Origin: Candidatus Aminicenantota bacterium
Lineage (GTDB): Bacteria; Acidobacteriota; Aminicenantia; Aminicenantales; UBA4085
Direction: 5' to 3'
Length of the DNA: 64,000 nt
NCBI GenBank assembly: GCA_003141555.1
Contig: PLMN01000029.1
Location: 213,922-277,921, forward strand
Shown here: piece after piece, positions 6,203-41,940 of the stretch
How positions within the stretch are numbered: the first letter of the stretch is position 1
Layout: each line of letters begins with the position of its first letter
The notes under the pieces: model-generated
Told to the model about the DNA's origin: nothing
Database searches by the model: none
Seen by the model: the letters and a program-made list of their open reading frames with translations, nothing else
Translations under genes and position numbers: made by a program

Positions 6203-6211
6203 AGGGGGCCG

Positions 6212-7036: not shown

Positions 7037-8004
7037 TGCGAGTCTTCCTTACCGGAGGCAGCGGCTTTATCGGAGGGGCATTGCTTCGAAGGCTCACGGG
7101 GGAAGGACAGAAGGTCGAAGTCCTGACCCGGTCCGACCGGGCCCGCCGGGCGGTCCTTGATGCGGGTGGCTTGCCGGTCCAGGGAGATATTGTCCAACCG
7201 GGAGACTGGCAGGCCGCGGCGGCGGCCGCTGACATCGTCGTCCATGCTGCGGGACGGGTGGGCGACTGGGGTTCTCGTCGCGGATTTTTTCGGGCGAACG
7301 TGGATGGAACGCGGAACGTTCTCAAGGCGCTGAGGGGGTGGAGAGGCCATTTCGTCCATTTCAGCTCGATCGCGGTTCACGGCTTTCGGCGCGGATTTTA
7401 TGACGAAAATTCTCCCGTCCGCGCGAGCCGGAATCCGTACGCCGCGTCCAAAGCAGTCGCCGAGAAGCTGGTCGAGAAAGCCGTCGGCAGCGGCTTGAAC
7501 GCTTCGATCGTCCGGATCGCCGGCGTCTATGGTCCCGGCGATCCTCATTTCATCACCCGGCTGCTTGCTCTCGCCCGTACCGGGTGCGTCTATTTCATCG
7601 GGAGAGGGGACCAGCCTACCAACCTGATCTTCATCGACGACGTCATCGATGGGCTCAGGCGGATAATCGACTGGAAAGGCGGACCCGGGCAGAGGTTCAT
7701 TCTGAGCGATCCGGACGCTCCCGGCGTCCGGGACGCCCTTCGTGAGGCGATATCCGTCCTGGGACTCAAAACGCAGATTCGTCGAATCCCGATGGGAATC
7801 GCCTATCCCGTGGCGTTCGGACAGGAGGTTCTCGGATGTTTGACCCTTAAATCCCCTTTGATCACAAGATATGTCGTTAAAGCGATGGCTCGCTCCTGCT
7901 TTTTCTCGATCGAGGCTACGGAGCAAAAGCTAGGCTGGCGGCCGCGCACGGCTTTCTTGGAGGGGGTCGTGAAGACGATGGCGTGGTATGCTCAGAATTC
8001 GTAA
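7036..8004 (+). CDS. NAD-dependent epimerase/dehydratase family protein (island)
   Basis: A 322-aa extended SDR. The N-terminus MRVFLTGGSGFIGGALLRRL is the NAD-binding TGxxGFxG motif; HFSSIAVHG and NPYAASKAVAEKLV carry the catalytic Ser and YxxxK, and the middle and C-terminus match 3-beta-HSD/sugar-epimerase-like members. It is translationally coupled to the preceding SDR (TGATG). Its stop overlaps that of the convergent sulfotransferase gene by 13 nt. Role in the island pathway is unknown; oxidation or reduction of a ring or sugar hydroxyl is a guess. Confidence 0.88.
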   Translation: MRVFLTGGSGFIGGALLRRLTGEGQKVEVLTRSDRARRAVLDAGGLPVQGDIVQPGDWQAAAAAADIVVHAAGRVGDWGSRRGFFRANVDGTRNVLKALRGWRGHFVHFSSIAVHGFRRGFYDENSPVRASRNPYAASKAVAEKLVEKAVGSGLNASIVRIAGVYGPGDPHFITRLLALARTGCVYFIGRGDQPTNLIFIDDVIDGLRRIIDWKGGPGQRFILSDPDAPGVRDALREAISVLGLKTQIRRIPMGIAYPVAFGQEVLGCLTLKSPLITRYVVKAMARSCFFSIEATEQKLGWRPRTAFLEGVVKTMAWYAQNS

Positions 8005-9080
8005 TGCCAGGATTCGAAGCTCCGGCTCCAAGCCGCGCGGATCTTGCTTTTTTCTTCAGCCGTCAGGTCCGGATAGACGTTCTTCCGGTATCCTGAGAGG
8101 TTCTTCACGTAGTCCTCAATTCGAGGCTTGACCGAAGGGAAACCCGGAAGCTCCAGCTTTGTGTAGAGGGCTTCCATCTCGGAGATTGGCGATTTCTCGA
8201 GATCCTCGAAACGGAGGGAATGGAAACGGTTTGGGGCGAGGAGCGCGAGATCCTCGAAATAGGCATCGTACATCGCGCTGTAGTGTCGAAAGATGCGCTC
8301 ATCCAGGCCCTCCAGCCGCGGTTCCTGGAGCCAGGAGAAATTCTTGAAGAGGTAAATCAAGAAGGACCGATAGGATTGGAACACGCGATATGGGTGGCGG
8401 GCGATATGAACGAAGCGCGCGTCGGGATAGATCTCCAAGAGGGTTCGGATCCGGGCCGTATGGGGTGGGGATTTGAGAGCGAGACGGCGGCCGTATTTGT
8501 ACGTCAATTTGTTGAGAAATCGAACGTAAATCGTCTTCCATCTCGCCGCTTCCGGTCCCGGCCGGCCTCGGAAATAACGGAAATTCGAGGTTTCGTGTAT
8601 CTGCCGAGGAAGGAGCAAGCTCAAATAAGTGGACGGCGCGCCCAAGGCGCAAAGGGCCAGCTCTTCTTCCTGGGGGCTGTCGAATTCCAGCCGGACGTTG
8701 TCGAACCCGCGGATTCTCCCAAGGCGGGAGGCCAAGAGGCGGGCCAGCACGCGCTCGCCGAGAAGGAGCCAGTGAGGGAAAAAAACTTGGGGCAATGTCG
8801 GGGCGGCGAATTCGGGATCCAGCATTAAAAGGTTGTGAAGATGGGTTGTCCCGCTCCTCTGATGCCCCAAGACGAAGAGGGGATGGGCGTTAATCTCCAC
8901 GTCCTCAATGATTTGTCCATAGCAGAGATCTTCCAGACCGCCCCACGCGGAATTGACGAGACTCAGGACCGTGATCGCCCCCGCCCGGGGAAGACAGGAC
9001 GGCGAGAGGCGAAGCTGGCAGGAGGAGAGCAACTTGATCCAGTCCCAAAACCGAATTCCGAAAATATAGGAAAACCTCAT
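7992..9080 (-). CDS. Sulfotransferase family protein (island)
   Basis: A 362-aa PAPS-dependent sulfotransferase. The 5'-phosphosulfate loop is FVLGHQRSGTTHLHNLL at about residues 69-85, and the 3'-phosphate-binding region is HIARHPYRVFQSYRSFL. This places it in the Sulfotransfer_3-like group, which sulfates small molecules, lipids or glycans. The start MRFSYIFGIRFW at 9080 overlaps the stop of radical SAM B by 4 nt (ATGA). A longer in-frame reading to 9218 lies inside that gene and is rejected. It is the last gene of the minus-strand island operon, so its substrate is likely made by the neighbouring radical SAM enzymes. Confidence 0.85.
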   Translation of the reverse strand: MRFSYIFGIRFWDWIKLLSSCQLRLSPSCLPRAGAITVLSLVNSAWGGLEDLCYGQIIEDVEINAHPLFVLGHQRSGTTHLHNLLMLDPEFAAPTLPQVFFPHWLLLGERVLARLLASRLGRIRGFDNVRLEFDSPQEEELALCALGAPSTYLSLLLPRQIHETSNFRYFRGRPGPEAARWKTIYVRFLNKLTYKYGRRLALKSPPHTARIRTLLEIYPDARFVHIARHPYRVFQSYRSFLIYLFKNFSWLQEPRLEGLDERIFRHYSAMYDAYFEDLALLAPNRFHSLRFEDLEKSPISEMEALYTKLELPGFPSVKPRIEDYVKNLSGYRKNVYPDLTAEEKSKIRAAWSRSFESWHYEF

Positions 9081-10348
9081 AGGATATCGCGATCCTGCGG
9101 CTCCTCCTTTCCAGGTTCCGGCTTGGGCAAGGCCACAAGAGGCGCGGCGTATCGGAGGTAGCTTTCCAGGATGCAGGATGAGATCAGCCGGCCTTCCCAA
9201 TATGTCTTGTTCGGGCATCCGTCACAAAGGTCCAGTTCTCCGGACGGCAGAATATCCATCGGCTGCAAAACGATGATGTTCTGGGCGTAGACGGGGCTGA
9301 ACAAGCGGGCGGGGTTCCGGAACGCGGATGCGAGGAATCTCCGAAAGGCGCGGCGCACCTCCGGATCGAAGGCCCCAAACAAGAAGAGGGCTTTGGCCTT
9401 TCGGCTGAACCGCGGCTTGGGCATGGATAAATAACGTCCCCGAATGAGATGGTGGGCCGTCTGAATCAGCTCGAAGGATTTTGGGCCGATGTTGCCGAAC
9501 GATCGGGCGCGGGTTCCGAGCCGGACGCCGATGGCCCATTTGACGGACGTCGCGAGGCTGGTCCCACCGATATAGCCGGCGAACGAGAAATCCGGGATGG
9601 CCTTCCGGACCTGATCATAAAGCTCTTCGGCCGAGATTCTCCGATACGGTTCGGCGGCAGGGGAGGCTCTGTCCCGAAGGGCGAGGTGATGGGCCCCGGC
9701 GTAAAAGTCGAAGGGGCCTTCCGGCGACATCGCTCGGACCGCGATCAAAGTATAGGCCTGGACGCGATCGATATTCTTGAGACCCCACGCGACGATGTCC
9801 GGGACGAAGCCGACCGAATCCGGAAAGATGGTGATGTTGAAGGCGGCGGTGAGTCCCCCTTCGGCATGGACCATATCGACGAGCTCCTGGCGAAGCCCAT
9901 TGAGCTCGCGTTCGTTCTTGCCCGTCCAGCCCGGCCGCTGCTGATGGCTGTCGACATGAAAGATGAATCCGAACAAGCCGGCCTTTTTGAGCTCTCGGAG
10001 GAGCCCGGCGTCGAGAGCGACGGCATTGGTGACGAGAAGCGGCTTGGGCCCGTAGGACTTCACCAAACGGACGATGTCCAGAATCCGGCGGTGGGTCAGC
10101 GGTTCTCCGCCGGCGATCATCATCAAGTCGCACTTCCGGAGGGCGATGAGCTGTTTGAGCTCCGCCTCGATCTGGCTCAGCGGTTTTTCGCTGTTCGGGT
10201 CGTTGGTGGCATAACAGGCTTCGCAACTGATGTTGCATTGGCGCGTCGGCTCAAACCAACTCATGCTGTTGTCGGCGGTCGTCCAGGGAATCCGGTACAG
10301 CGACCGGATGTCGATCCGGGGGACATTATCGTTGCGAAGGGCGATCAC
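9077..10348 (-). CDS. Radical SAM protein B, paralogue of A (island)
   Basis: A 423-aa radical SAM protein with CNISCEAC at residues 38-45 (CxxxCxxC) and MIAGGEPLTHRRIL as the GGEP motif. The C-terminus contains LDLCDGCPNKTYWEGR and then SCILESYLRY, the same CDGC...SC arrangement as in protein A. Other shared blocks include HVDSHQQRPGW (HVDSGQQRPGW in A), VAWGLKNIDRVQ and RRAFRRFL. The two probably arose by duplication and act on related substrates. It lies 6 nt after the lipoprotein gene and overlaps the sulfotransferase start by 4 nt. No precursor peptide is seen nearby. Confidence 0.85.
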   Translation of the reverse strand: MIALRNDNVPRIDIRSLYRIPWTTADNSMSWFEPTRQCNISCEACYATNDPNSEKPLSQIEAELKQLIALRKCDLMMIAGGEPLTHRRILDIVRLVKSYGPKPLLVTNAVALDAGLLRELKKAGLFGFIFHVDSHQQRPGWTGKNERELNGLRQELVDMVHAEGGLTAAFNITIFPDSVGFVPDIVAWGLKNIDRVQAYTLIAVRAMSPEGPFDFYAGAHHLALRDRASPAAEPYRRISAEELYDQVRKAIPDFSFAGYIGGTSLATSVKWAIGVRLGTRARSFGNIGPKSFELIQTAHHLIRGRYLSMPKPRFSRKAKALFLFGAFDPEVRRAFRRFLASAFRNPARLFSPVYAQNIIVLQPMDILPSGELDLCDGCPNKTYWEGRLISSCILESYLRYAAPLVALPKPEPGKEEPQDRDIL

Positions 10349-10354
10349 GTTAGA

Positions 10355-12064
10355 TTAATTCAATTTCCGCAGCGCTTGGTAGGTCTCGGCCCGCCATTTC
10401 AAGAACTCACGGAATGAATATTGGACCACGAATCCGGGCTCCAGGGCAAAGCGGAGGAGAGTGTCGTTTTGCGGCGGACCTTCGGCCCGGAGATGTATGT
10501 CGTAATACCCATTCGCCTTCAGGATGACCGACCGCTCCATGCCGGGGGCGTGCGCCGGCGCCCGGAACGTGAGTTCGGCCCGATCGCCTTTCAGGGGCAT
10601 GGCGAAATAGCGGCCGTCGGCGCTCGTCAAGGCCGGTCGGATATCATGTCCCGCATCATCAACGGCTCGGGTCGCTTCGAGCTCATGGACCTGGACGGGA
10701 AGATCGGCATCGTAATCCACGGCCAGCGAATTGATCATCCAAAACTCCGCCGGGGGGCAAAGCTTGATTTTCAGGACGTCGCCCGGGACATCGGCCAGAT
10801 CGAGCAGATAGACTCGATCTTTAGAGACGAACGGCCCCCCTCCGACGATCAGGCCCTTGGTCACCCAGCCGGCCGGAGTATCGACCTGGAGGCGCAGGCG
10901 ATAGAGCTCTTCCCGTTCGTTGAACGAATCGCGCCACGCCTGAGCGGGTCCCGGGACGCGCAGCGCCTCGTAGCGTTTTTCGACATTCGTCCCGTAGAGC
11001 TCGAGAAACCGCTTGATCATCTGAGACGCCCAGAGGGTGCTGCACCCATTGAACACGAGCTTGGCCGTCCGGGCCCCGGCCGGCTTGGAGAATTCGAATA
11101 GAAGCTCGTCCCGGAGGTCCTCCTTCCGGTCCGGATTCTTCTCTTCGGCTTTCGTGATCCAAAAGCTTCCGTCCGTTCGGCCGACGAGGGGCAGGATGTC
11201 GCGCCCGCGCCCGTCCGCCGCCTTGACGGGGGGACAGGGGTGGGTCAGCGTGTGGACGCGGCCCTGCTCGTCCGCGACGGCGCCGACGCCGGCCGGGTGG
11301 TCCACAACCAGGAGCTTGAGCTCGTCGGTGTATTCAGTTTCATCGCCTTCGTTGGCGATCATGATCTTGTACTCGCCCCCGACCTCTTTGAGGTAGGGAA
11401 GCCCGCACCATTCCGTCCGCTTGACCCCCTCGGCGATGGCCCCGCCGTAAGGTTCGGCGTCGAAGATATATTCGGCTCCATCATAGGAATAGATGAAGGG
11501 ACAAGAATGTTGCGATGTGGTTGGAGGAGGTGGAGGAGGCTGGTAGGTCAGTGCGGCGATTAAGACGCCTACGGCGATTGCGGCCCCGAGGACCATGACG
11601 CTGGTCATCACGGGATCGAGCCTTTCGATGCGGATGATTTCAACGTCGGAAAAGGGAACGACAAGGTCGTAAGCTTTGCCCTCAATGGTCCATTGTGTAT
11701 CGCTCTCCTTCGAGGATCGGACATCATACGCCTTCCCGTCTCTCGTAAGGATGAAATGAACATTCCCATCCGCGTCCCGGTCGGTGCTCTTGACTTCCTC
11801 CTTGGGAATCACCAGGTCGAAGTAATAAGGAGTCGGCCTTTCCTTCGAAGCCAGAAGGAAGTCGCCGGTAAACCGGATATCCGAAGGATGGGGGAAGCGG
11901 ACTTCCAGGCCGGACGTCAAAACGACGCCGTAGATGGTGGGCTGACCGGCCCTTAATTTGCGAACGTCTTCCGGGCTCTTTGAAAGCCCCGTTTCGTGGA
12001 AACATGACCAGGTGAAAACAAGGAACGCTGCGAGGGTGATGATCGCCACGGTTCTTCTAAACAC
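10355..12064 (-). CDS. Large lipoprotein-like protein with Pro-rich hinge (island)
   Basis: A 569-aa exported protein of unknown function. The N-terminal hydrophobic stretch TVAIITLAAFLVFTWSC ends in a plausible lipobox Cys. A first domain of about 110 residues resembles an RNA-chaperone-like or beta-barrel repeat (alternating short strands). A second hydrophobic stretch (MVLGAAIAVGVLIAALTY) is followed by a run of seven prolines. The larger C-terminal domain begins CPFIYSYDGAEYIFDAEPYG, a pattern I associate with uncharacterised bacterial secreted proteins. It sits between radical SAM C and B in one operon, so it may hold or display the pathway product at the envelope; that is inference. Confidence 0.7.
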   Translation of the reverse strand: MFRRTVAIITLAAFLVFTWSCFHETGLSKSPEDVRKLRAGQPTIYGVVLTSGLEVRFPHPSDIRFTGDFLLASKERPTPYYFDLVIPKEEVKSTDRDADGNVHFILTRDGKAYDVRSSKESDTQWTIEGKAYDLVVPFSDVEIIRIERLDPVMTSVMVLGAAIAVGVLIAALTYQPPPPPPTTSQHSCPFIYSYDGAEYIFDAEPYGGAIAEGVKRTEWCGLPYLKEVGGEYKIMIANEGDETEYTDELKLLVVDHPAGVGAVADEQGRVHTLTHPCPPVKAADGRGRDILPLVGRTDGSFWITKAEEKNPDRKEDLRDELLFEFSKPAGARTAKLVFNGCSTLWASQMIKRFLELYGTNVEKRYEALRVPGPAQAWRDSFNEREELYRLRLQVDTPAGWVTKGLIVGGGPFVSKDRVYLLDLADVPGDVLKIKLCPPAEFWMINSLAVDYDADLPVQVHELEATRAVDDAGHDIRPALTSADGRYFAMPLKGDRAELTFRAPAHAPGMERSVILKANGYYDIHLRAEGPPQNDTLLRFALEPGFVVQYSFREFLKWRAETYQALRKLN

Positions 12065-12078
12065 GCTGAGCCTCCTTT

Positions 12079-13452
12079 TTATCCCGCGGGATAATCAAAC
12101 TTTCGCGAGGACTCGGGAGAAACGCCGGCGATGAGGTCCCGCCATTCGCTTTGGATTTCGCGATAGGGGATCGGAAGGGGAAATCCCCGCCGCATTCCAT
12201 CGCGGAGGATTCCGGACATACGGAGGGATGGGCATTCGTGCCGGCTTGGCCCGGGAACGGCATTTCTCATAGCTTGAAGGATGGACGTGAAGGAATCCTC
12301 CAGGATCGATCCGAATGAGACCGGGACGAAGACGCAGGGCAAAACCCGCCCGCGGCTGTCGACGGCCAGATGAGAGAGCCCTCCCATGAGGCAGCCGAAT
12401 CGGTCCGGCCGTTCGGAAAAAGACGGATAGGCGACGTAGGGAAGATGGCGGGTTTCCCGGCCCGAATTGGCCTTCTTGAAGAAACGGACGACTTCATTTC
12501 GGTCGGAGGGCAGAAAAAGATCATTTGCCTCTTTCCCGAGGAATCGCCCGCAAGGCTTCGGCTCACTCATCGAGACGACGCCGGCGCCGGCCGTCTTGGC
12601 GAACTCGAGAAATCTCCTCAACTCTCCAGCCCGGGCGGTTTCACGGCTCAAGCACATGTTGATGTAGGGAAAGATACCGGCTTCGCGAAAGCATCGAATC
12701 GCCTGGATGCTGCGGGCGAATGAACCTGGCGTTCCTCGAATACGGTCTTGTCCTTCCGGGTCCGCGACGTCGAGAGCGATCCCGGCCGCCGCCAGGCCGG
12801 CGTCCTTCAAGTCCTTCGCGATTTTCGGCGTGACTCCGAAACCCGAGGTGTGGACGTGAAAATCCGAAAGCCCCTTGTCGCCGGATTCCAGAAGCTCGAG
12901 TAGGCCGTCCTGCCGAAGCATTGGCTCGCCTCCCGACAGAACGATGACGCTTGTGCCCCACGCTTGAAGCTCGCGAATCGTCTCTTTCCAGCAGGGGATG
13001 GGCACTTCCTCGTCGACGCCCAAATTCAGGCCTTCATAACAATGCCGACAGGCATAGGGGCAACGGCGGGTGATCGCCAAGACCGCGGAATCAATATGCT
13101 TTTTCGCCGATGTCCCAGCGGCCTCTAGGTTCAATCCGCCTCCCGCGACCATTCGATCATAGGCCGCGGAGGGCCAACGTGGAACGCGAAGGACGGGGCC
13201 GTAGTAGTGGCGCCCGAACCTTACATGTTTCGGGATGGCGAGCTTCTTCCCTTTGGCTAAAGAGCGCAGCGCAGCCGGATGGAACAAGGGATAGCGGCGC
13301 CTCCAAACGAAATAGCGACCAAGCGACAGGACGAACTTCATTTTGAAAGGGATGAGAGTCCATCCGGACAGAACGCGCAACTGAGGTGTCTTTAGATAGG
13401 TTCCCATTGAACTGGGCTTCGGCCGACTGTATCTTCCCCCCACTAGCGTCAT
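12079..13452 (-). CDS. Radical SAM protein C, SPASM-like (island)
   Basis: A 457-aa radical SAM enzyme, distinct from A and B. CPYACRHC at residues 131-138 is the CxxxCxxC cluster motif and VLSGGEPMLRQDGLLELL is the SAM-binding element. The C-terminal half has Cys residues in CLMGGLSHLAVDSRGRVLPC and a HECP element, similar to SPASM or twitch auxiliary-cluster regions. The 120-residue N-terminal extension is basic and unusual. The start at 13452 follows AGAGAGG. It is the first gene of the minus-strand operon (C, lipoprotein, B, sulfotransferase), preceded by a near-consensus promoter and overlapping hairpins. Confidence 0.83.
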   Translation of the reverse strand: MTLVGGRYSRPKPSSMGTYLKTPQLRVLSGWTLIPFKMKFVLSLGRYFVWRRRYPLFHPAALRSLAKGKKLAIPKHVRFGRHYYGPVLRVPRWPSAAYDRMVAGGGLNLEAAGTSAKKHIDSAVLAITRRCPYACRHCYEGLNLGVDEEVPIPCWKETIRELQAWGTSVIVLSGGEPMLRQDGLLELLESGDKGLSDFHVHTSGFGVTPKIAKDLKDAGLAAAGIALDVADPEGQDRIRGTPGSFARSIQAIRCFREAGIFPYINMCLSRETARAGELRRFLEFAKTAGAGVVSMSEPKPCGRFLGKEANDLFLPSDRNEVVRFFKKANSGRETRHLPYVAYPSFSERPDRFGCLMGGLSHLAVDSRGRVLPCVFVPVSFGSILEDSFTSILQAMRNAVPGPSRHECPSLRMSGILRDGMRRGFPLPIPYREIQSEWRDLIAGVSPESSRKFDYPAG

Positions 13453-30984: not shown

Positions 30985-31932
30985 TCACGCCTTCCTGCGG
31001 CGCGCGGCCGCGTTCCAAGCCCTCGGAAACGCCGGGGCGACGATCACGGCCAGAAGCCCGATCAGAATTCCAGCCACGGAGTCCGAGAGATAATGGTAGC
31101 GGAGGAAGAACGTGGAGATGTAAATGGAGATGACGACCGGCGCCAGGACATAGAAGACCGTCCGGACATAGCGATAGGTCATGAGCCACATGACCGTCGC
31201 GACGGCACAGTGGGGGCTGGGGAAGTTGCTTCCGATCTCGTGGATATGGGTCCGGATGTGTTCGCCCCAGGCCGTGAAGAAACCGCCCTTGAGGGGAACC
31301 GAATAGGCGCCGGCGATATGGTTCAAGGGGCCGGCGATGGGGAAGAGCATGAAACCGATGCAGCAGGCGAGATTGGCCAGGGCCAGGGTCAGCCAGTAGT
31401 CCTCGAGAGGCCGTTCGCCCCGGGTGAAATAGATCAGGGCGCCGAGGGCGGGATATAAGAAGACGTAGATCACGTAGGCAAACATCAGCCATTCCGTGAG
31501 AGGCGGCGAGATGAACCTTTGGAGCCAGACCGTGGGCTGGACTCCGAAAATGGCCTTCTCCCAGCCAAGAAGGGGTTCGTCCTGCCAGCTATGGACCCAT
31601 ATGAGCTGGAGGCGCTGGCAAATCATGAAAAGCTCGTAGAATACGATCTGGACCGCGCCCGCCCGGACCAGGAAGTACAGGATACGGTTCTTCATCAGGG
31701 GGAGAAGGTAGATGGAACCGACGTAGACGGCGGCCCAGAGTCCCGTCCGGGCGAGCAAACCCCACGGCGCGGGGATCCGGCCATGAAAAACGGAGATCAG
31801 GATCGCGAACAGGAGGAGGGATCCCAACACAACCGCGTCGGTGGCCTGGAGGCCGGCCTTGAGAAAAGAGATGCGCGCGCCGTAAAGACCCGAAATGCGG
31901 AGGCTTTTCGCGGCCGATGTCGTTTCCGTCAT
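30985..31932 (-). CDS. PAP2-superfamily integral membrane protein
   Basis: A 315-aa polytopic membrane protein with about six or seven TM segments. The PAP2 motifs are GSNFPSPHCAVATV and FLRYHYLSDSVAG, with a His/Asp pair as in lipid-phosphate phosphatases and inositol-phosphorylceramide synthase-like transferases; the upstream FMLFPIAGPLNH fits the latter. It may remove or transfer a phosphate headgroup on a lipid. Its start overlaps the phosphopantetheinyl transferase stop by 4 nt, so it is the last gene of the megasynthase operon and may act on the pathway product. A broken homologue lies at 41785-41940. Confidence 0.82.
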   Translation of the reverse strand: MTETTSAAKSLRISGLYGARISFLKAGLQATDAVVLGSLLLFAILISVFHGRIPAPWGLLARTGLWAAVYVGSIYLLPLMKNRILYFLVRAGAVQIVFYELFMICQRLQLIWVHSWQDEPLLGWEKAIFGVQPTVWLQRFISPPLTEWLMFAYVIYVFLYPALGALIYFTRGERPLEDYWLTLALANLACCIGFMLFPIAGPLNHIAGAYSVPLKGGFFTAWGEHIRTHIHEIGSNFPSPHCAVATVMWLMTYRYVRTVFYVLAPVVISIYISTFFLRYHYLSDSVAGILIGLLAVIVAPAFPRAWNAAARRRKA

Positions 31933-32711
31933 GTCATCTCCCCGCCGTGCTCAAGGCGCCGGGCGACGGCGTTCCGACGCTGCCGATTCAACAGGGCGAT
32001 GGACAGCCACATCTCCTCTTGAAAATGCGAACGCACCCATAGGCATCGGTCCTTCATGAGGGGAAACCGGACGAGAACTTTTCCCGAAAAGCCCACCGTG
32101 AAGAAATGTCCGCCGTCCTCTTCGGCAACCGATGGATCGACGCAGATTTGACGCGGATCCACAAGATGAAATGCGCATCCCACGGCCTTGACGGCAGCTT
32201 CCTTGATAGACCAGAGCAGGGCGGATGCTTTTTTCGAATTTCCGCTCGTCAACATCAACGCATGGCGAAGCTCTTGGTCATGAAATGCCCGGTGAAAAGG
32301 ATAATCGTCCGGGAATTCATCCGTCCCGGCCGCGTCGATCCCGATCTCCGACGTATCTCCGCTGAGAGCGGCCCAGATCTTCCCTCCGCCCTCGCTGAAA
32401 GAAATGGCCGGCCCCTCGCATTCTCCCAGCCGGAGATGCGGCCGGCCGAGCGGGTCATGGAGGATTTGCAGCGGCAAATCCGCGGGACCGGAGAAACGAC
32501 CCTCTGTCCAGGGAGAGCCTTCCATCCTTGCAAGAGACTCCCTCAAAAGTGAAACCAAATGAATCTGATCTGCCGTCCGGCTTGTTCCGTCACCGGCGAT
32601 GGTTTCCGGGCCGGAAGGCGAGCACGCATATAAAACGCTTCCCCTTTGCCGAGGAAACGTTACGGACTTGACGGTTATTTCCCGGCCATCCACGATCACA
32701 TCAGCTGTCAC
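31929..32711 (-). CDS. 4'-phosphopantetheinyl transferase superfamily protein
   Basis: A 260-aa PPTase. The metal/CoA motifs are SEIGIDAAGTDEF (first Asp motif) and LLWSIKEAAVKAVG (WxxKEAxxK), as in Sfp/HetI-type enzymes. The first motif has lost the usual VD.E form in part, but Asp is retained. It would transfer phosphopantetheine to Ser1668 of the neighbouring megasynthase ACP. The start codon is GTG at 32711, 17 nt after the megasynthase stop. Confidence 0.83.
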   Translation of the reverse strand: MTADVIVDGREITVKSVTFPRQRGSVLYACSPSGPETIAGDGTSRTADQIHLVSLLRESLARMEGSPWTEGRFSGPADLPLQILHDPLGRPHLRLGECEGPAISFSEGGGKIWAALSGDTSEIGIDAAGTDEFPDDYPFHRAFHDQELRHALMLTSGNSKKASALLWSIKEAAVKAVGCAFHLVDPRQICVDPSVAEEDGGHFFTVGFSGKVLVRFPLMKDRCLWVRSHFQEEMWLSIALLNRQRRNAVARRLEHGGEMT

Positions 32712-32728
32712 TTTTTCTGAACGGCGTT

Positions 32729-35700
32729 TTACTCCGCAACTTTCCGCAGGCGCAGGCCCAGGACCTGGATGATGGGGCGGCCTTGATCATCAAGCCCTCT
32801 CGCGTCCCAGACGAAGCCGTTCTCATCTTCCAGCCGCATTCGAGCTTCCAGGGTGATCTGTTCTCCCTCTCGGCACGTGCGCAAAAATCTCATCTCCCCG
32901 ACCCCTACGGGAATCATGGCCTGTCGCTGCGCTGGGGCCACGGCCATTCCGGAGAGGCCGACCACCTGCATAAGCGCCTCGAAAAGATACGGTGAGTATT
33001 GGTATTGCCCGTTTTGCAGATGGGCGAAATCCTTTCTCTGCCGGTAGGTGGTTCGGCCCCGTACCACCCCCGGACCTGAGCCGTCCAGAGAGTCTATCAC
33101 CCGGTACCTCTCTCCGAAGCCGGAGCCGTCCGCGTACAATTGAAGGACCTGATGATGATCCATGGGGCGCGCCTGCAATTCGTCCGGCCGGATCGGAAAA
33201 TCAGAGAACGCTTCCCCTAAATTGCCCTGGCCGCCGTCGAGGATGACCTGGCCCAGGTCGCAGAGTGCAAATCGGTCCGTCAATCTTCCTGTGGGGGACA
33301 TCTCCTGGGCTGAAAGAGAAACTTCGCAATTCGCCTCTCCGGGCAAAGCATCGACTCGCCGGCAGGATATCCTGCACGGCCGCAAAATCCCCGGGGGACA
33401 GAGGATCATATCCATGAATCGCATCTGCCGAACCCCTCGCACCTGAAGATAAGGATACAGAATTCTTGCGGCTTCCATGGATGTCTCCAGAACCATCGCC
33501 GCTGAAACCAGAGGATGCTTGATGAACTTAAAAGGCTTGTGGTCCGCTATCCAAAGGTCCTTTTCCAGAGAAAACGACCGCACGGCCTCAAGTTGCCCCT
33601 GACGCAAATCCAGGCTTGTGATTTGCTCTATCATGGGGAAATCCTCGCAGCTCGAAGCCACGGTCCCTCCCCCCAGCATCCCACCGGGCAAAGGATCGAC
33701 GGTCTCATTGATCCGGACTGCCGTCACGGCCGGCAGTCTCTTCATAAACATCACCCAATCGTCGTCGTCCGACGCCCCAAAAAGCTCTCTGCAGAAAAGT
33801 CCGGCAAGCTCATCGACGTTGATATAGCCCACACCTTTGCGCTGCAACATTTCGCGGACATCCGGATCCTCGGCCATACCGGCCCCCTCGATGGGGGGAA
33901 GCATCAAAGCCTTGAACCGTATGGCCGCATTTTGGGGGAGCAGGTATCGGATGAACGCGGACATCATTCGGTTGGCCGCGGCGTAGTTGGTCTGGCCGGG
34001 ATTGCCCTGGATGGCGGCTACCGAGGCCAGGCCCACGAAAAACTTCAAGCCCGCCTTCTCGGCCGCCGAAAATAGATTCCCGGCGCCGAGGAGCTTGACG
34101 TCCGCGACCAGGGAGAGGTCATCCGGAGTCATTTGGTCAAGAAAACCATCCCTGAGGACGCCGGCGCCGTGAATGATCCCGTCGATCCGTCCATAACGCT
34201 TTGCCACCGCGCCCAGAACGGCCTCAACCGCCTTGCCATCGGTGACATCGCAGACGGCGTATGAGGCCTCGATTCCCAAGGAGCGCAAATCCGCCAGCGT
34301 CTGAGCCGTCTCCGCGGCTCTCCGGCCGGGAGTGTTCGGCTCGGAAGGCCGCGGCTTCGATGCCGCTTTTGCGGAATTGATCTCCGGTTCCATCGGCGTC
34401 CTTCCCAGAAAAACGATACGCGGCTTAAAGGGCGCAAGGCCGCGAGCCAGATGAGCGCCGATACCGGATGCCCCTCCGGACATCACGATAACGTCTCCGG
34501 GATGAAGCTGTCGACTTGGAAAATTCCCGAAGATCGATGGAACGACATGCCCCTCCGAGGTGAAAACCTTTCCATCGCTGTAAATCATCTCCACTTCGGG
34601 ATATCCTCTGTCCAAAGCGCCGCCGAAAGCAGCCCGAAGATCGGCAGCCCCGTCGATTTCGAGGGTGCGAAACTGAACGGACGAATATTCCTGCGATGCG
34701 CTCAGGAACAATCCGAGCAGTCCCTCCGCCGGCAGCCGACCGAGAGTTTTGGCATCATCTCTGCAATGAACGAGCATGACGAACTTCTTGGCCGGTGACA
34801 GGAGAAATGCCTTCAGGGGTAAAAATAGCCCCCTTAAAAGCCGCGAAACATCCTCGATCCCTTTCAGCTTTCCCGACCAGCCTTTAGGCAAGGTGATCAC
34901 CATCCCGGCCGGGGCCGCCGAGCTCGATATTCTCTGGGATGCCTGACGAGACCCTTCATCCGTCAAAAGATCAAAATCTTCTTGTCCCGTGCCTTTCGCC
35001 CGCATAAATAGGATGGGAATCGTATCCACCCCGTAATTCTGCCGGAATAGGACTCGTGCGTTTTTGGCGATCTCGTCGTCCTTGTCGGGTGAGAGAAAAA
35101 GGACCGGCTCGCCTTGGCTCAATTTTATCGGAGTCGAGGCCGATCGCTCCAGGAGGACGCGCCTGAAAACGAGCCGTTTTAAGCTCGCTTCATTCCGTGA
35201 GGGCTTCAGGGCTTCCTCCGGCCCCGAGCCGGGGTCGGCCGCTTGGGCGGCCGGCGGGGCGCCGATCCCTTCGTTCCCGGCGACGATCCCGGAGATTTTC
35301 CGGGCGATGTCCCTCACCGTGCGGACGGGGATGAAATCCTCCAGCTCGATCGTAATTCCGAAAAGGCGCTCCGCGGCGTCCATGATGATCGGGAGACGGC
35401 TGGAGCGGATGGATAGGTCTTTTCGGAGATCCATATCGGGCAGGATTTCATCCCGATTAAAGCCCGTCGCATCCATGATGATGTGAATGAGCGCCTCGAG
35501 ACGATCCTGCTCCTCCGGAGTCCCGGCGCCGGAGCGGGGGGCTTGTCCATCCGGCATCGTGCCGCCCGATGCGGGGGTCGTTCGGGATGCAGGAAGGGAA
35601 ACGCCCCTTGGTTCTCCGCGAACCTCCAGATGCCCCTGCACGAAGAGCTGGGCCAGGGCGGCCGTGAACGTGCGGCTTTCTTCAGGGGGAAGGCAGGTCT

Positions 35701-38700
35701 GGATGCAAGTCGAATCAGGGAGCGTGTCGGTGATGAGATTGCTCAAGATGTCGCCGGGGCCCACCTCGACGAAGAGCCGTATTCCATAGTCGTCCCAAAG
35801 CGTCTGAACGTTGCTTCTCCATTGGACCGGAGACTCCAGGTGGGACATGAGGATTCGTCTGATCTCACCGGAATCCGTTGGATACGGCGCCATGGTCGTA
35901 TTGGAAATGACGGGAATCTTGGGAGGATGAAAGGGGATGGAGGCCACATAGGCTTCGAGCTCGCCATGGATGATCCGCATGATCGGAGAGTGGAAGGCCA
36001 TGCTCACCCGCAAGAGGGTGGAGCGGTATTCCATCTCTTTCAGTTTTTTGCAAAACTCCTTGACCGCCTCGGTGGCGCCGCTCAGGATGACCTGGCCCGG
36101 CGAATTGATATTGCCGATGTGGACGTTTTCCTGTCCCTTCAACAATTTTTTCAGCAGGTCCAGAGGGGTATCCACGGCCGCCATGACGCCCGGATCCTTA
36201 TTCACGGCGGCGGCTTTGTCCATGCAGAGGGCTCTCTTGTTCACGATGCGGAATCCGTCCTCCATGGAGAATACGCCCGCCAGGCACAGCGCCGTCAGCT
36301 CGCCCAGACTATGGCCGGCCATAGCCGCAGGGTGGATGCCGAGCGAAACAAGATATTGAGCCATGGCGAGTTCCATGGTGAAGAGCGCCGGCTGCTGCCA
36401 GCGCGTCTTGAGGAGGTTATCCTCCTGATCATGGAACAACAAGCCAAGAAGGTCATAATCCGCGACCGCGGCCACCCGGTCCATCCATTTCTTGATGACG
36501 GGAAAGGACTCATAGAGACTCCGCCCCATCCCCATATAATGGGTTCCCTGTCCGGAAAAGACAAAAGCCATCGGCGGCGCCGGCAAATTCTCGGGCCTGA
36601 TGAAAATCCCCCGCTGGGCAAGCCGCCTCAAGATCTTGGGTGCGGCGATGCCGGATTCCATGAGGGAAGCCGACGTCTCCATGGCCCTGATCGCCTCTTC
36701 TTCGGAAGGCGCCGTGACGGCCGTCCGGCAGGGAACGCCGCCGACCCGGGTCCGGAAGAACGAGACTCCCGGGAGAGCCGCAAGGCCGCCTTCCGTTTTC
36801 GCCTCGTTTCCATGGGCGATGAAGACCTGGTCCTCTCCGTCCAGGGCCTGTTCCAGCTGGACGATATAGTTGGACCCTCCAAACCCGAAGGCATTGACCT
36901 GAAACCTTCTCGGCCGGCCGTTCCTGCGCTTCCAATCCTGCGGCTCCCGGGTGACAAAAAGCCCGGACCCGTCCAGACCCATCTCCGGGTCGGGATGCTC
37001 ATAATTGAGCGTCGGGGGGAAAATCCCGGCCTTCATGGCCGTGACGCCGCGGACGAGGCCTGAGATGCCCGAGGAGCCGAGGGTGTGTCCGATCTGGGAT
37101 TTGAACGCGGCCAGGGCCGTGGGATGGGAGGGCTTGAAGAATGCCTTCAGGGCGCGAACCTCCTCGACATCTCCCTGCCGAGTGCTTGTGGCATGACATT
37201 CCACCATGTCCACGGCGTCGGGTCCATAGGGGATCCCGCGGAACGAGCCGGCGATGGCGGCTTCCTGGGTAACGCTCGAGGATTCCACCATGCCCAGATG
37301 ATTGTTGCTCGCTCCCATGTTGGTGATGACGGCCTGGACCGGCACGCCCCTTCGGCGCGCCAGACGCTCACGCTCGATCACGATCATCCCCCCGCCTTCG
37401 CCGAGGACCAATCCGTCTCTTTGAGCGTCGAAAGGACGCGAGCACTCGTGAGGGGGCCGGTCCCGTCCGGAAAGTCCGTACAGGGCTCCTAAGGCGGAGA
37501 ATTCTATGAAATGGATGTGGGTGAGCTTCTCTTCTCCTCCTCCGACGATGGCGGCATCGAGGATCCCGGTCCGGATCATTTGGATGGCGCTGTGGAGGGC
37601 GACGAGCGAGGTCGCGCAAGCCGCGGAGACGGAAAAGCTGGGGCCCATGAATCCGTACCGGTTGCAGACGAAGCCGGCCGCGGAGCAGTTGAGCCTGCCC
37701 AGAAGAGAGGTGTCGTCCGGGGCCATCGATCCGGATTTGATCTCGCTTTCGAAGGCTTGCTCCTGCTCCCGCGTCACGGGAATCGTTTTTCGGATGGCGG
37801 CCAGGATCTGGTGAATATTTTCCCTGATGATCAGCGGTGTCAGAGGGGCCGACGTCTCTCCCGAGTTCTGGGAGATGAGGACTCCGATCCGCTCTCGGGG
37901 GATGCCCGACTCCAGGATCCCGGACTCCCGGATGGCCTTTTCGGCCAGCCACATGGTGATCTTGGTGGATTCGGTCATCGTTCGAAAATCGTGGGGTGGA
38001 ATCCCGAGCTCGCTGCGGGAGGCCTGAAAATCGATGAAGGCCGCGACATTGCAATAGCTCTTGTCCATGATGTGGGGCCGGGGATCATAGAAACGCTCCT
38101 GATCCCACCACGAAGAGGGGACGCGAATGACCCCGCTCTTCATGGCCAGGCTCGCGCTCCAGATCTCCTCCGGACTCTTCCCCAGGGCATTGATGGCGCT
38201 CATCCCGGTGATGGCGATCCTTTCATGATCGCTTTCGCACCCGTCCGGCCGGCCGAATCTGAGGGTCGAATTCGTCGTCGGCCGCGCGACGTCCGAGGTG
38301 TCTCCTTCGCGGGCCTCGGGAAACGGCCGGTACAGGGGAAGCGGCCCCTCGGCCAACTCGCGATGAAAGGACTCCAACGTCCGGACGCTGCGGAAGAGTC
38401 CGGCACTGGCCCCGCTCATGAATTGCCCGCGTTCCAAACGAGTCCGCTCCGGCAGAAGCCGCCCCTCCTGATCCAGGCCCCGGGCCGCTATGAAAAGACT
38501 CCCGGCCGTCATCTCCTCCATTTTCGTCCGGAACGCGGTTTCGTCCTGGTGACCCGCCGCGAATTGTCTTTCCATCGAGAGCACGGCGGCCGTCCTCGGC
38601 GTTTTCAAGGACCGGACCCGAAGCCCCGTGCTTTGACCGGTAACGATCGTTCCCCCCGGAGGCGATTCCAGGACCATCCGTTGATAGAGGGCCGTCATCG

Positions 38701-40405
38701 CGCCCGTTTCGACGATCTCCCGAGTGGCCAGATAGGCGGTGCCCATCTGGATGGCGTCGGCGCCGAGCATGGCGGCCATGAATGCGGTTTCCCGGTCGAA
38801 GATTCCTCCGGCAAGAATGACGCGGCAGTTTTGGAACAGGGCAGGATTCTGCCGTTTGAGGCCCAATACGCTTTGGGCGAGAGTCAGCATGCTCAGCTGT
38901 CCCACGTGGCCGCCAGCCTCATACCCCTCGCAGACGACATATCGCACGCCCGCTTTCAGGGCCAGCTTCAGCAGGGCCTCATCCGGGGCGATATACACGA
39001 CCCCGATGCCGCATTCCAGCAATTCCCGGATGGGGGAGATATCTCCCCCGGCGATCCAGACAAAACGGGGCTTCGTCTTCTTGATCCAGCCCATTTGAGC
39101 TTCCCGGGCGGGGTTTTCCGCCAAAGATATGATATTCACGGCATAGGGACGATTTCCCATCACCTCCGGCAGGCGACCCAGTCTCCGATCGAGCGCCTCC
39201 GCATTCATCAGGCCGAGGGCGATCGTCGGCAATCCCCCGGCATCGGCGATTCTCGCGGCAAACTCCGGGAGATCGGTAATGGAGGACATGGCGCCTTGGA
39301 TAAATGGATATTTCGTCCCCAGCTCCTTGGCTGAAGGGCTGTCTTTGTAGCTATCCTTTTTTGCCTCAGCCGAGCGGCAGGCGTTTCGAATCTCCTCGAT
39401 GAATCCGGCCACGGCCTTTTCAGTCTCGGTCCCGAATCGCTCGGCAAACGACGCGGCAAAAGCGGCCTCCACACCCAGGGGGATGACCTCGTCCTTGGAG
39501 AAATGGCTCTCCAGAGGCTGTCGGAACCTGCCCTTCACGCGGTCGGCGAAGCGACGGCGGCTTTCCTCCGTGATCTCGCCGTCGGCCAGCGATTCCTCAA
39601 ACGCCTTGATCTCCCGGAAGGCCAACGAGTTTCCTTTATTGAAAAGCCGGCAAGGAACCTGAACGTCCAAGCCCGCCAGGGACGTCGAATCCGCGCGAAT
39701 TGCGGCGAGCCGCCGGCGTTGGGGGGGATCCAGGGCCACGAGATCCGTCAGCCAGTGGATGCTTTCGAATACGAGACCCGCGGCTCCCGTGGATAAAAAT
39801 GCCGCGGCCGCCTCAGGCGTCCAGACACCGCCCCAGATGAAGATCTCCGGAGACGTCGCGGCCTCGGGCCGCATGTCCTTGGCTGCCGCGTAGAGAATCC
39901 AGGTCGTTTCCCCGCTCACGAATCCGGAAGCTTCGCATCCCTTCAGGACGACGCGCCCGATTCCCGAAGGATCCTTCAAAATCGTCGCGAGAATATCCAG
40001 GTCTCCGATGATGGGAAAACAACGGACGTTTTCCGACACATTCCTCATTCTCTGGAGAAAGCCGGACGGATCCTCCCAAAATTCCCGGGGGTGGCATTCA
40101 ACCCATAGGTTCAGGGCTCCGCTTTCCCTCAGCCAAGGCTCCAAGGCGGGATCCCTGAACGCAACGGCCGAGATCTTGATATCCTTGACGCGGCACGTCG
40201 GGGCCGCCTGTCGAAAGAAAGACTCCAGGGCCGGCGTCTCCATCATGGAAAAATCGAAAATTGCCCGGCTCCCCGTCCGCTGAGCCATTTGGGTAACTCT
40301 GGGAGTGACGTCCTCAGGCCGCCAGACAAATCCCAGGATAGGACCCCGAGAATCAGGCGGCACGTCCCGATCTTCCTTTCGACTCTGGATGTTCACGTGT
40401 TTCAT
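32729..40405 (-). CDS. Type I polyketide/fatty-acid megasynthase (NMO-NMO-KS-AT-ACP-KR-DH)
   Basis: A 2558-aa multidomain synthase. Residues about 10-260 form a first nitronate-monooxygenase-like TIM barrel (GVWTPEAAAAFLSTGAAGLV), perhaps degenerate. About 370-600 is a second, fuller one (EGYEAGGHVGQLSM; AGGIFDRETAFMAAMLGADA), the type of flavin enoyl reductase found in PfaD. KS about 730-1180 has Cys930 (SAACATSLVA), His1071 (VECHATST) and His1107 (IGHTLGSSG). AT has Ser1366 (GHSLGEL). One ACP has Ser1668. KR about 1970-2150 has SGGASGIG and a QTNYAAAN Tyr. The last 280 residues are DH/hot-dog-like (IADHKPFKFIKHPLVSA). It starts directly after the preceding stop (TAAATG). Product unknown. 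Confidence 0.9.
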   Translation of the reverse strand: MKHVNIQSRKEDRDVPPDSRGPILGFVWRPEDVTPRVTQMAQRTGSRAIFDFSMMETPALESFFRQAAPTCRVKDIKISAVAFRDPALEPWLRESGALNLWVECHPREFWEDPSGFLQRMRNVSENVRCFPIIGDLDILATILKDPSGIGRVVLKGCEASGFVSGETTWILYAAAKDMRPEAATSPEIFIWGGVWTPEAAAAFLSTGAAGLVFESIHWLTDLVALDPPQRRRLAAIRADSTSLAGLDVQVPCRLFNKGNSLAFREIKAFEESLADGEITEESRRRFADRVKGRFRQPLESHFSKDEVIPLGVEAAFAASFAERFGTETEKAVAGFIEEIRNACRSAEAKKDSYKDSPSAKELGTKYPFIQGAMSSITDLPEFAARIADAGGLPTIALGLMNAEALDRRLGRLPEVMGNRPYAVNIISLAENPAREAQMGWIKKTKPRFVWIAGGDISPIRELLECGIGVVYIAPDEALLKLALKAGVRYVVCEGYEAGGHVGQLSMLTLAQSVLGLKRQNPALFQNCRVILAGGIFDRETAFMAAMLGADAIQMGTAYLATREIVETGAMTALYQRMVLESPPGGTIVTGQSTGLRVRSLKTPRTAAVLSMERQFAAGHQDETAFRTKMEEMTAGSLFIAARGLDQEGRLLPERTRLERGQFMSGASAGLFRSVRTLESFHRELAEGPLPLYRPFPEAREGDTSDVARPTTNSTLRFGRPDGCESDHERIAITGMSAINALGKSPEEIWSASLAMKSGVIRVPSSWWDQERFYDPRPHIMDKSYCNVAAFIDFQASRSELGIPPHDFRTMTESTKITMWLAEKAIRESGILESGIPRERIGVLISQNSGETSAPLTPLIIRENIHQILAAIRKTIPVTREQEQAFESEIKSGSMAPDDTSLLGRLNCSAAGFVCNRYGFMGPSFSVSAACATSLVALHSAIQMIRTGILDAAIVGGGEEKLTHIHFIEFSALGALYGLSGRDRPPHECSRPFDAQRDGLVLGEGGGMIVIERERLARRRGVPVQAVITNMGASNNHLGMVESSSVTQEAAIAGSFRGIPYGPDAVDMVECHATSTRQGDVEEVRALKAFFKPSHPTALAAFKSQIGHTLGSSGISGLVRGVTAMKAGIFPPTLNYEHPDPEMGLDGSGLFVTREPQDWKRRNGRPRRFQVNAFGFGGSNYIVQLEQALDGEDQVFIAHGNEAKTEGGLAALPGVSFFRTRVGGVPCRTAVTAPSEEEAIRAMETSASLMESGIAAPKILRRLAQRGIFIRPENLPAPPMAFVFSGQGTHYMGMGRSLYESFPVIKKWMDRVAAVADYDLLGLLFHDQEDNLLKTRWQQPALFTMELAMAQYLVSLGIHPAAMAGHSLGELTALCLAGVFSMEDGFRIVNKRALCMDKAAAVNKDPGVMAAVDTPLDLLKKLLKGQENVHIGNINSPGQVILSGATEAVKEFCKKLKEMEYRSTLLRVSMAFHSPIMRIIHGELEAYVASIPFHPPKIPVISNTTMAPYPTDSGEIRRILMSHLESPVQWRSNVQTLWDDYGIRLFVEVGPGDILSNLITDTLPDSTCIQTCLPPEESRTFTAALAQLFVQGHLEVRGEPRGVSLPASRTTPASGGTMPDGQAPRSGAGTPEEQDRLEALIHIIMDATGFNRDEILPDMDLRKDLSIRSSRLPIIMDAAERLFGITIELEDFIPVRTVRDIARKISGIVAGNEGIGAPPAAQAADPGSGPEEALKPSRNEASLKRLVFRRVLLERSASTPIKLSQGEPVLFLSPDKDDEIAKNARVLFRQNYGVDTIPILFMRAKGTGQEDFDLLTDEGSRQASQRISSSAAPAGMVITLPKGWSGKLKGIEDVSRLLRGLFLPLKAFLLSPAKKFVMLVHCRDDAKTLGRLPAEGLLGLFLSASQEYSSVQFRTLEIDGAADLRAAFGGALDRGYPEVEMIYSDGKVFTSEGHVVPSIFGNFPSRQLHPGDVIVMSGGASGIGAHLARGLAPFKPRIVFLGRTPMEPEINSAKAASKPRPSEPNTPGRRAAETAQTLADLRSLGIEASYAVCDVTDGKAVEAVLGAVAKRYGRIDGIIHGAGVLRDGFLDQMTPDDLSLVADVKLLGAGNLFSAAEKAGLKFFVGLASVAAIQGNPGQTNYAAANRMMSAFIRYLLPQNAAIRFKALMLPPIEGAGMAEDPDVREMLQRKGVGYINVDELAGLFCRELFGASDDDDWVMFMKRLPAVTAVRINETVDPLPGGMLGGGTVASSCEDFPMIEQITSLDLRQGQLEAVRSFSLEKDLWIADHKPFKFIKHPLVSAAMVLETSMEAARILYPYLQVRGVRQMRFMDMILCPPGILRPCRISCRRVDALPGEANCEVSLSAQEMSPTGRLTDRFALCDLGQVILDGGQGNLGEAFSDFPIRPDELQARPMDHHQVLQLYADGSGFGERYRVIDSLDGSGPGVVRGRTTYRQRKDFAHLQNGQYQYSPYLFEALMQVVGLSGMAVAPAQRQAMIPVGVGEMRFLRTCREGEQITLEARMRLEDENGFVWDARGLDDQGRPIIQVLGLRLRKVAE

Positions 40406-41527
40406 TTATAAAGACTTTTCGAAGATGCGGTATTTCTTATTTAACTTTCCGCCGGCTTCCTCGATCAAGGTGTTGATCGCCTCGTTGTCCTCCAGCGTCC
40501 AGCCCAGCTCCATATAGCGATATTTCTTTTTCCCCCTGACGACCTCATAAATGTGGTGGAAGGCCAAGAGGGGAATGCCCATCTGCCGGTACTTTTCCTT
40601 GATCCCGAACATGATCAAGCGCAACCCGTCGATTTTCCGCTGGTACCGGAGCGCCTTCAGCACGCCCATCACGCCGATCCGGCCGTTGAGACGCTTGAGG
40701 AGAAAATTCATGTCGGGGAAGATCACGCATACCGCGGCGGGCTCGTTCTCATAATAGATGAAGAAGGCCAGATCCGTATCCATGAACTGCATGACGTTCT
40801 TTTGGATGTCCCGCATCTCGGGACCGCTCAGCGGGACAAAACCCCAGTTCCCCGACCAGCTGTCATTGTAAATGTCCCTGATCAGGTCAAACTCGGCGCT
40901 CAAAGCCTTAGGATTGATGCGTCTGATGTGGATGCTCTTTTTTTGGGCGATGCGTCCGGCCAGGCTATCCATCCATTCGGGAAGCCGGTATTCGCCTTCT
41001 ATCAAAAAGGCAAGCAGGTCCTTCGCTTTGGCATAGCCGCACGATTCGATCAACTTCAAGTAGTAAGGCGGTTGGTAAGGCATCTCAACCACGGGCGAAT
41101 AATCAAATCCTTCAATGAGCAATCCGATCTCGTAATTCGTGGACGGGCCGAGCGGGCCTCTTATGAAGGTCATCCCCTTTTGGCGGACCCACGCCTCCGC
41201 GGAAGAGAAGAGGGCCGCCGCGGCCTCTTGATCATCAGCGCATTCAAAAAATCCCCAAATGCCCATCTTTTCGCCATGGAACTGGTTATAAGCACGGTCG
41301 ATGACGCCCGCGATCCTTCCCACGGTCTCCGAACCGCGTCGGGCCAGAAAGAGGACGCGCTCGGCAGACTCCCAGACCGGATGCTTGGCAGGGTCCAACA
41401 ACCGGCGGACATCCTTTTTAAGAGGAGGCACCCATTTGGGGTACGGAGCATATATCTTCCATGGAAGATCGATGAAGTCCTTCAACTCCGATTTGCTTTC
41501 GACGGTAACGATGTCGATACCAGCCAT
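40406..41527 (-). CDS. YghO/GNAT-like acyltransferase
   Basis: A 373-aa cytoplasmic protein resembling the uncharacterised YghO family of the GNAT fold. Recognisable pieces are an N-terminal IYAPYPKWVPPLKKDVRRLL, GPLGPSTNYEIGLLIEGF in the middle, and a C-terminal GNAT-like half (GIKEKYRQMGIPLLAFHHIY, ELGWTLEDNEAINTLIEE). GNAT enzymes transfer acyl groups from CoA or ACP to amines. As the first gene of the operon, abutting the megasynthase start with no gap, it may release or conjugate the synthase product. That role is inferred. Confidence 0.75.
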   Translation of the reverse strand: MAGIDIVTVESKSELKDFIDLPWKIYAPYPKWVPPLKKDVRRLLDPAKHPVWESAERVLFLARRGSETVGRIAGVIDRAYNQFHGEKMGIWGFFECADDQEAAAALFSSAEAWVRQKGMTFIRGPLGPSTNYEIGLLIEGFDYSPVVEMPYQPPYYLKLIESCGYAKAKDLLAFLIEGEYRLPEWMDSLAGRIAQKKSIHIRRINPKALSAEFDLIRDIYNDSWSGNWGFVPLSGPEMRDIQKNVMQFMDTDLAFFIYYENEPAAVCVIFPDMNFLLKRLNGRIGVMGVLKALRYQRKIDGLRLIMFGIKEKYRQMGIPLLAFHHIYEVVRGKKKYRYMELGWTLEDNEAINTLIEEAGGKLNKKYRIFEKSL

Positions 41528-41594: not shown

Positions 41595-41784
41595 GAGAGT
41601 TCACCTCCCCAGGACCGCGGCAACGTCACTTGTCGCAGACGCATGACTCTCCTCCTTTAAGAAAGCCGATGACCATTGGTCAGCCGCTGTTCACAAGTTG
41701 GCAATATCTGAAAAATCTTACACCTCCTCGACTATATTTTCAATACGGAATCCTTTGGTCTGGTGCCCGAAATATCGAAAGAAG

Positions 41785-41940
41785 ATCTTCGGGTTTATTT
41801 CCACGCTCTACCTGAGGTATCATTGCCTCATGGACAGCTTCGTCGGCATCTTGACGGCGGTGCTCATTAACGGCGTTTCGCCGGCGCTTGATAGGGCCTG
41901 GAACGGGGCGGTCGGGCGCGGGAGCGAGGTCAAGGGATGA
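41785..41940 (+). pseudogene. C-terminal remnant of a PAP2 gene
   Basis: The frame reads KIFGFISTLYLRYHCLMDSF then VGILTAVLINGVSPALDRAW, matching the C-terminal end of the intact PAP2 protein at 30985-31932 (STFFLRYHYLSDSVAGILIG, APAFPRAWNAAARR). The Asp and second His of motif three are kept but the rest of the gene is gone. It ends in TGA overlapping the ATG of the next gene. The remaining 41528-41784 has no supported gene. Its place opposite the intact copy, flanking the megasynthase operon, suggests duplication or replacement. Confidence 0.65.

Follow-up and report, generated by a model that had tools for sequence, protein, structure and literature searches.

Closest described systems

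PfaA-type synthases (TIGR02813; the secondary lipid synthases of Shulse and Allen) resemble the megasynthase described here in the order of their ketosynthase, acyltransferase, ACP, ketoreductase and dehydratase domains (KS-AT-ACP(n)-KR-DH), in possessing a dedicated PPTase and in their patchy horizontal spread. The present synthase differs in having a FabK-type enoyl reductase (ER) at its N-terminus together with a second barrel, in being accompanied by neither PfaB nor PfaC, in its single ACP and in forming a KS clade of its own. FabK itself, the enoyl-ACP reductase II (TIGR03151), is comparable to barrel 2 of the megasynthase in sequence, FMN-site motifs and catalytic His, whereas barrel 2 is fused into a megasynthase behind a barrel lacking this His and scores below the family cut-off. 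Two ER-type barrels per synthase are also known from the ERb/ERc heterodimer of the Schizochytrium PUFA synthase (PMC13311796), but in that pair neither has lost the catalytic His and the two are located on separate chains, while here one chain carries both and one of them is His-less. Fused pfaDA genes have been reported (PMC13291983), and an ER fused ahead of a KS is therefore not new in itself.

SgaAB was described to make PKS-derived sphinganines in Pseudomonas and Burkholderia (PMC12134224), and there, too, a type I synthase that acts iteratively goes together with an oxoamine synthase of the SPT type. Compared with SgaA by description only, the synthase reported here differs in that its constant partner is a GNAT and that its operon contains no SPT. 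No oxoamine synthase gene was found in the window (the whole stretch of DNA analysed, 64 kb in length), and so there is no SgaAB-type two-gene cluster; a Burkholderia stretch taken as a possible SgaAB reference was found to contain no PKS. The Caulobacter ceramide pathway (aasR, acpR, spt, cerR, cerS; PMC11324152) shares with loci of this family an acyl-ACP synthetase, an ACP and an oxoamine synthase (fused in some neighbours here), an SDR and an N-acyltransferase, with the difference that the N-acyltransferase proposed here is of a tandem-GNAT family and that the acyl chain would be supplied by a megasynthase. Both the ER-KS fusion and the derivation of sphingolipids from a PKS thus have precedents.

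Organization of the operon and domains of the megasynthase

Four genes were found to form a tight run on the minus strand at positions 30985-41527 of the window (Table 1), with the coordinates, strand and lengths of the original prediction proving exact. The stop codon of P0004 directly abuts the ATG of the megasynthase. Pfam matches across the operon were to KS, AT, KR, PS-DH, NMO (two stretches), ACPS and PAP2_3; together with residue checks, these agree with the original description of a 2558-aa chain with two NMO-like barrels, KS, AT, a single ACP, KR and DH, in an operon with its own PPTase and PAP2 protein.

Table 1. Features of the synthase operon and the adjacent SDR gene (positions within the window; res, residues).
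Feature	Position	Strand	Details
Extended SDR P0007	41937-42935	+	Pfam; divergent from operon
Tandem-GNAT protein P0004	40406-41527	-	373 aa; proposed acyl-ACP:amine N-acyltransferase
Megasynthase	32729-40405	-	2558 aa; barrel 1-barrel 2 (ER)-KS-AT-ACP-KR-DH
Barrel 1	39371-40348	-	res ~20-345; divergent FabK/NMO-family TIM barrel
Barrel 2	38336-39328	-	res ~360-690; FabK-type enoyl reductase
Ketosynthase (KS)	36845-38239	-	C930/H1071/H1107 invariant
Acyltransferase (AT), malonyl-type, FabD-like	35711-36574	-	GHSLGE S1366, AFHS H1472
Single ACP	35291-35518	-	pantetheine Ser1668 in DLSIRSSRLP
Ketoreductase (KR)	33806-34513	-	S2128/Y2141/N2145 invariant
Double-hotdog dehydratase (DH)	32735-33598	-	H2289 and E2476 invariant, both clades
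PPTase P0003	31929-32711	-	260 aa; PF01648 E 3e-8; presumed ACP activator
PAP2_3-type membrane protein P0002	30985-31932	-	315 aa; PF14378 E 5.5e-16

The PAP2_3-type protein possesses the motifs FPSPH and RYHYxxD and is a candidate lipid phosphatase or head-group transferase. It showed a weak match to AUR1 (E 0.009), and its relatives adjoin SPT genes in other loci. The divergent SDR P0007 is possibly a ketosphinganine-type reductase, with only 25-29% identity to the SDRs that adjoin SPT. A short ORF on the plus strand (41755-41940) combines the start of an IS200-like transposase with what is left of a PAP2 C-terminus, the latter identical to P0002 at 17 of 32 residues. The sequence LVWCPKYRKKIF in this ORF is what we take to be the transposase start, and the ORF is a rearrangement scar at the edge of the cassette. 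Elsewhere in the window (5012-13407), genes for three radical SAM proteins cluster with those for two SDRs and a sulfotransferase.

Barrel 2 was found to match the FabK of T. maritima (E 2.4e-34 with an alignment profile) and TIGR03151 (E 2.6e-40), although its 139 bits lie below the family cut-off of 453. FabK was the sole NCBIfam match, no PfaD family model being matched, and a PfaD-like identity was rejected for this barrel. The motifs GAMS, EAGGH (with H500), AGG and QMGT are nearly invariant across orthologues of both clades of the synthase, and H500 corresponds to the His proposed to be catalytic in ERs of the FabK/PfaD type (PMC13311796). Sequence match, EAGGH His and FMN motifs are thus all those of FabK. 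The earlier suggestion of a PfaD-like domain fused in front of the KS and doubled is retained as to the fusion and the doubling, which occur in both clades, and revised as to type, the reductase being FabK-like.

Barrel 1 is far more divergent, with a weak profile match to FabK 9pl0 (E 8.7e-5) and a BLASTP match to barrel 2 of E 0.05; profile-profile alignment of the two barrels covered shared alignment ends alone. Its model contains eight beta/alpha repeats at low confidence (pLDDT 56), and Foldseek matches of the poor tandem-barrel model probably reflect barrel 2. In both clades KGxEAxGFV, WVE, WGG and FESxHWxTDL are kept, the first of these reading KGCEASGFV here, which places F162 at the position of the catalytic His. 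This His is absent from all sequences of the two aligned clades, with Phe or Trp in its stead. A standard ER domain is excluded for barrel 1 on this account: conserved but without the His, it cannot use standard ER chemistry. It is predicted to be a conserved non-catalytic or altered homologue. Of the tandem NMO-like barrels originally proposed, the fold is therefore upheld for both, while only the second is a recognisable enoyl reductase. Since the two ER domains of thraustochytrid synthases form a heterodimer (PMC13311796), it is a reasonable guess that barrels 1 and 2 may pair within the chain as a pseudo-dimer.

The catalytic residues of barrel 2 and of the KS, AT, ACP, KR and DH domains are invariant in clade 1 and retained in clade 2. 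Under established motif rules, AFHS marks the AT as malonyl-type. As its second residue the DH has Glu2476 in place of the Asp found in PKS dehydratases, and Glu is likewise used by FabZ. Several orthologues contain two or more ACPs in place of the single one here. Judged by its domain content, the synthase is predicted to be of the type I fatty-acyl kind, with a full set of domains for complete reduction of the chain and with no thioesterase seen.

A KS tree of 42 sequences was constructed with PfaA-model hits, Persicobacter, Beijerinckia Type P, Methylosinus, Pfa-like sequences of Streptomyces and Rhodococcus, enediyne and modular PKS, and FabF. Among these 42, the KS domains of the synthase form one clade on a long branch (support 100/99), outside the PfaA-like (15 Pfa-type references), phenolic-lipid, enediyne, modular and FabF types. 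The phylogeny proposed with the original prediction thus placed the KS in no characterised clade that was sampled, Types R, S, T and HglE lying outside the sample. The accompanying idea of a lipid-type iterative synthase is supported, with iteration itself an expectation from sequence.

Although P0004 had no Pfam hit, its model is that of a tandem GNAT fold (pLDDT 87, pTM 0.86) and Foldseek returned tandem GNATs (E 1e-13), bearing out the GNAT-like assignment made earlier.

Distribution and gene neighbourhoods

Clade-1 orthologues of the synthase, 62-72% identical, were found at 20 loci spanning several phyla, and the domain arrangement is therefore conserved far beyond chance. The hosts are MAGs classified in Thermodesulfobacteriota/Desulfobacterota, Nitrospirota, Planctomycetota, Lentisphaerota, Verrucomicrobiota, Acidobacteriota, Myxococcota and Gammaproteobacteria. 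A second clade (approximately 47-54% identity) occurs in Desulfobacterota. Within the order of the window genome, only one of 58 relatives (G050) had the synthase, as did 3 of the 396 genomes from its phylum; in the phylum of the Syntrophaceae MAG G065 (locus L024) it was present in 15 of 395, mostly as second-clade proteins of 2630-2730 aa. High identity across phyla together with patchy presence is taken to indicate that the synthase was spread by horizontal transfer. No orthologue of its KS was found among plasmid records. Orthologous ORFs are broken in some MAGs, and in two Syntrophaceae MAGs (L024:10046-17410 and L026:121-7599) the megasynthase is split into overlapping ORFs at different points, for which natural splitting, decay and assembly error are alternatives.

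Where clade-1 loci include flanking sequence, the gene immediately upstream of the synthase almost always encodes a GNAT, and PPTase orthologues adjoin the synthase in many loci. A DrrA/DrrB-like ABC pair is a recurrent neighbour (12 loci), the DrrB-type exporter permease being absent from the window genome and from G050. Other recurrent neighbours are an SDR, a phosphoethanolamine-transferase-like protein, a FemAB-like GNAT, a B12-radical SAM protein and a 281-aa lipoprotein. The last of these (L019:7439-8284 and eight other loci) has no Pfam match and contains conserved HSW and NCTD motifs, which we presume may represent an NlpC/P60 or LRAT-like His/Cys pair.

Linkage to SPT-type genes was found repeatedly. 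A Geobacter MAG (L036) possesses an SPT, a GNAT paralogue and a PAP2 gene just upstream of the synthase on the same contig, while on one contig of G073 (L082/L090) SPT-PAP2-ACP faces EPT-ABC-ABC-C9-synthase, the SPT being accompanied by a separate ACP and a KS-like gene. In a Syntrophaceae genome (L077) the SPT is tied to the synthase by shared flanking genes, and the SDR adjoining the synthase in L034 is 61-63% identical to SDRs adjoining SPT (L109-L111). A FAAL-ACP-oxoamine synthase fusion is linked to the synthase in five loci (L017, L018, L020, L030 and L034). No SPT was found near several orthologues whose flanks are long (L019, L025, L027 and L031). Second-clade loci are mostly without GNAT and SPT and contain thioester-reductase-like SDRs and radical SAM genes; in L131, L132, L134 and L137 such an SDR is situated upstream of the synthase, which suggests a different release route there.

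Beyond the cassette, the nearest paralogues of P0004 share 35-40% identity with it and belong to SDR-SPT-GNAT operons (L074, L078 and L086), and a member of this GNAT family (E 2.8e-109) follows the SPT of Aureispira anguillae. Bacteroides and Parabacteroides SPTs have different neighbours, and in the class of G065 a P0004-family GNAT was found within 1.5 kb of SPT at only one of seven SPT loci.

The SPT of the window genome is on another contig (G000:C8:36467-37660), none being present within the window. SPT is its best family match, with 452 bits (below the cut-off of 640), and it falls in the SPT clade. In a tree of 29 oxoamine synthases, the SPTs of the window genome, G050, L036, G073 and the SDR-SPT-GNAT operons group with those of Bacteroides and Prevotella (95/91). 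The oxoamine synthase of the fusion (L017:12606-16085 and relatives) has its own long branch apart from SPT and from BioF/Kbl, and was rejected as an SPT. SPT homologues were identified in 56 of 59 relatives; their co-occurrence with the synthase in the order was discounted as evidence, SPT being nearly universal there. The megasynthase seems to have been acquired on top of a sphingolipid capacity that was already present.

Proposed function and alternatives

With a probability of about 0.5, the operon encodes a self-contained, horizontally mobile iterative synthase of a specialised chain that is probably very long and for the most part saturated, destined for a sphingolipid-type (amide-linked) membrane lipid. 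The proposal is based on the domains, invariant catalytic residues, operon and gene linkage observed, from which we infer iteration, chain length, the acceptor and release role of the GNAT and the final lipid. The new membrane lipid first suggested for this locus is hereby narrowed, as a hypothesis drawn from the neighbourhoods of relatives, to a sphingolipid type. P0003 would activate the ACP and the AT would load malonyl units, with KS, KR, DH and barrel 2 extending and reducing the ACP-bound chain, and barrel 1 acting as a non-catalytic or altered partner barrel, perhaps as a pseudo-dimer with barrel 2. As there is no thioesterase, release is proposed to occur by transfer, with P0004 taking the chain off the ACP and joining it to the amine of a sphingoid-type base derived from SPT or a related oxoamine synthase. 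The earlier notion that the GNAT may release the chain is supported as a possibility. The PAP2_3 protein would then finish and export the lipid, assisted in other hosts by the ABC exporter and the phosphoethanolamine-transferase-like protein. Weighing against this proposal are the lack of an SPT within the window and near several long-flanked orthologues, the missing DrrB-type permease in the window genome and G050, the position of the fusion oxoamine synthase outside the SPT clade, the scarcity of GNAT and SPT in second-clade loci and the broken ORFs of some orthologues.

The synthase might instead supply the sphingoid chain, with SPT or an oxoamine synthase condensing its acyl-ACP and an amino acid, as for SgaA-SgaB. 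The PKS-derived sphinganines of Pseudomonas fluorescens are a direct precedent (PMC12134224) and the synthase is physically linked to oxoamine synthases, but this role appears unlikely. The fusion oxoamine synthase has its own FAAL and ACP and is thus probably loaded from free fatty acids, the SPT of G073 has an ACP and KS-like gene separate from the synthase, and the nearly constant adjacent partner is a GNAT and not an SPT; owing to the FAAL and ACP of the fusion and the constancy of the GNAT, the N-acyl role is preferred. An acceptor other than a sphingolipid (an aminolipid, sugar or polyamine) would fit with the many amines used by GNAT folds, with further GNAT paralogues in the window genome that have other neighbours (L087 and L088) and with the second-clade loci that have thioester-reductase-like SDRs, radical SAM genes and no SPT. 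SPT linkage would then reflect general clustering of envelope-lipid genes. This is likewise considered improbable, given the repeated SPT-type linkage in different phyla and the GNAT paralogues in SDR-SPT-GNAT operons.

Least probable, and in our view quite unlikely, is the reading in which a PUFA or secondary lipid synthase of ordinary PfaA type, already described among Types A-T of Shulse and Allen, carries an ER fused in front. The shared domain order, the variable ACP number and the fused pfaDA genes (PMC13291983) are in keeping with it, and Type S of Desulfobacterium autotrophicum was outside the comparison; against it stand the separation of the KS from all 15 Pfa-type KS, an omega_3_PfaA score of 417 bits that does not reach the cut-off of 1010, the FabK-type rather than PfaD-type ER, and an operon in which no PfaB, PfaC (KS-CLF-DH2) or PfaD-type ER was found.

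Should the preferred N-acyl role be correct, it may bear on the ceramides of euxinic Black Sea waters, whose acyl chains exceed C31 (32-39 carbons) and which probably stem from anaerobic bacteria, with a tentative attribution to Desulfobacterota and Bacteroidota (PMC11334938), and on sphingolipid acyl chains of C14-C42 in Black Sea sediments (PMC12619533). No report of an enzyme making such long sphingolipid acyl chains was found in the literature. It is a tentative and rather doubtful suggestion that the synthase-GNAT pair is the source of the C30 to C42 chains of anoxic Black Sea ceramides and 1-deoxyceramides, and founds a distinct class of single-chain acyl synthases with a His-less ER-like barrel. 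The synthase and its GNAT, which has paralogues beside SPT, provide one gene pair, present in Desulfobacterota and other phyla, with which to test for long chains. If true, the GNATs would constitute a further family of bacterial ceramide N-acyltransferases, which would help to account for the frequent failure to find CerS close to SPT (PMC11334938).
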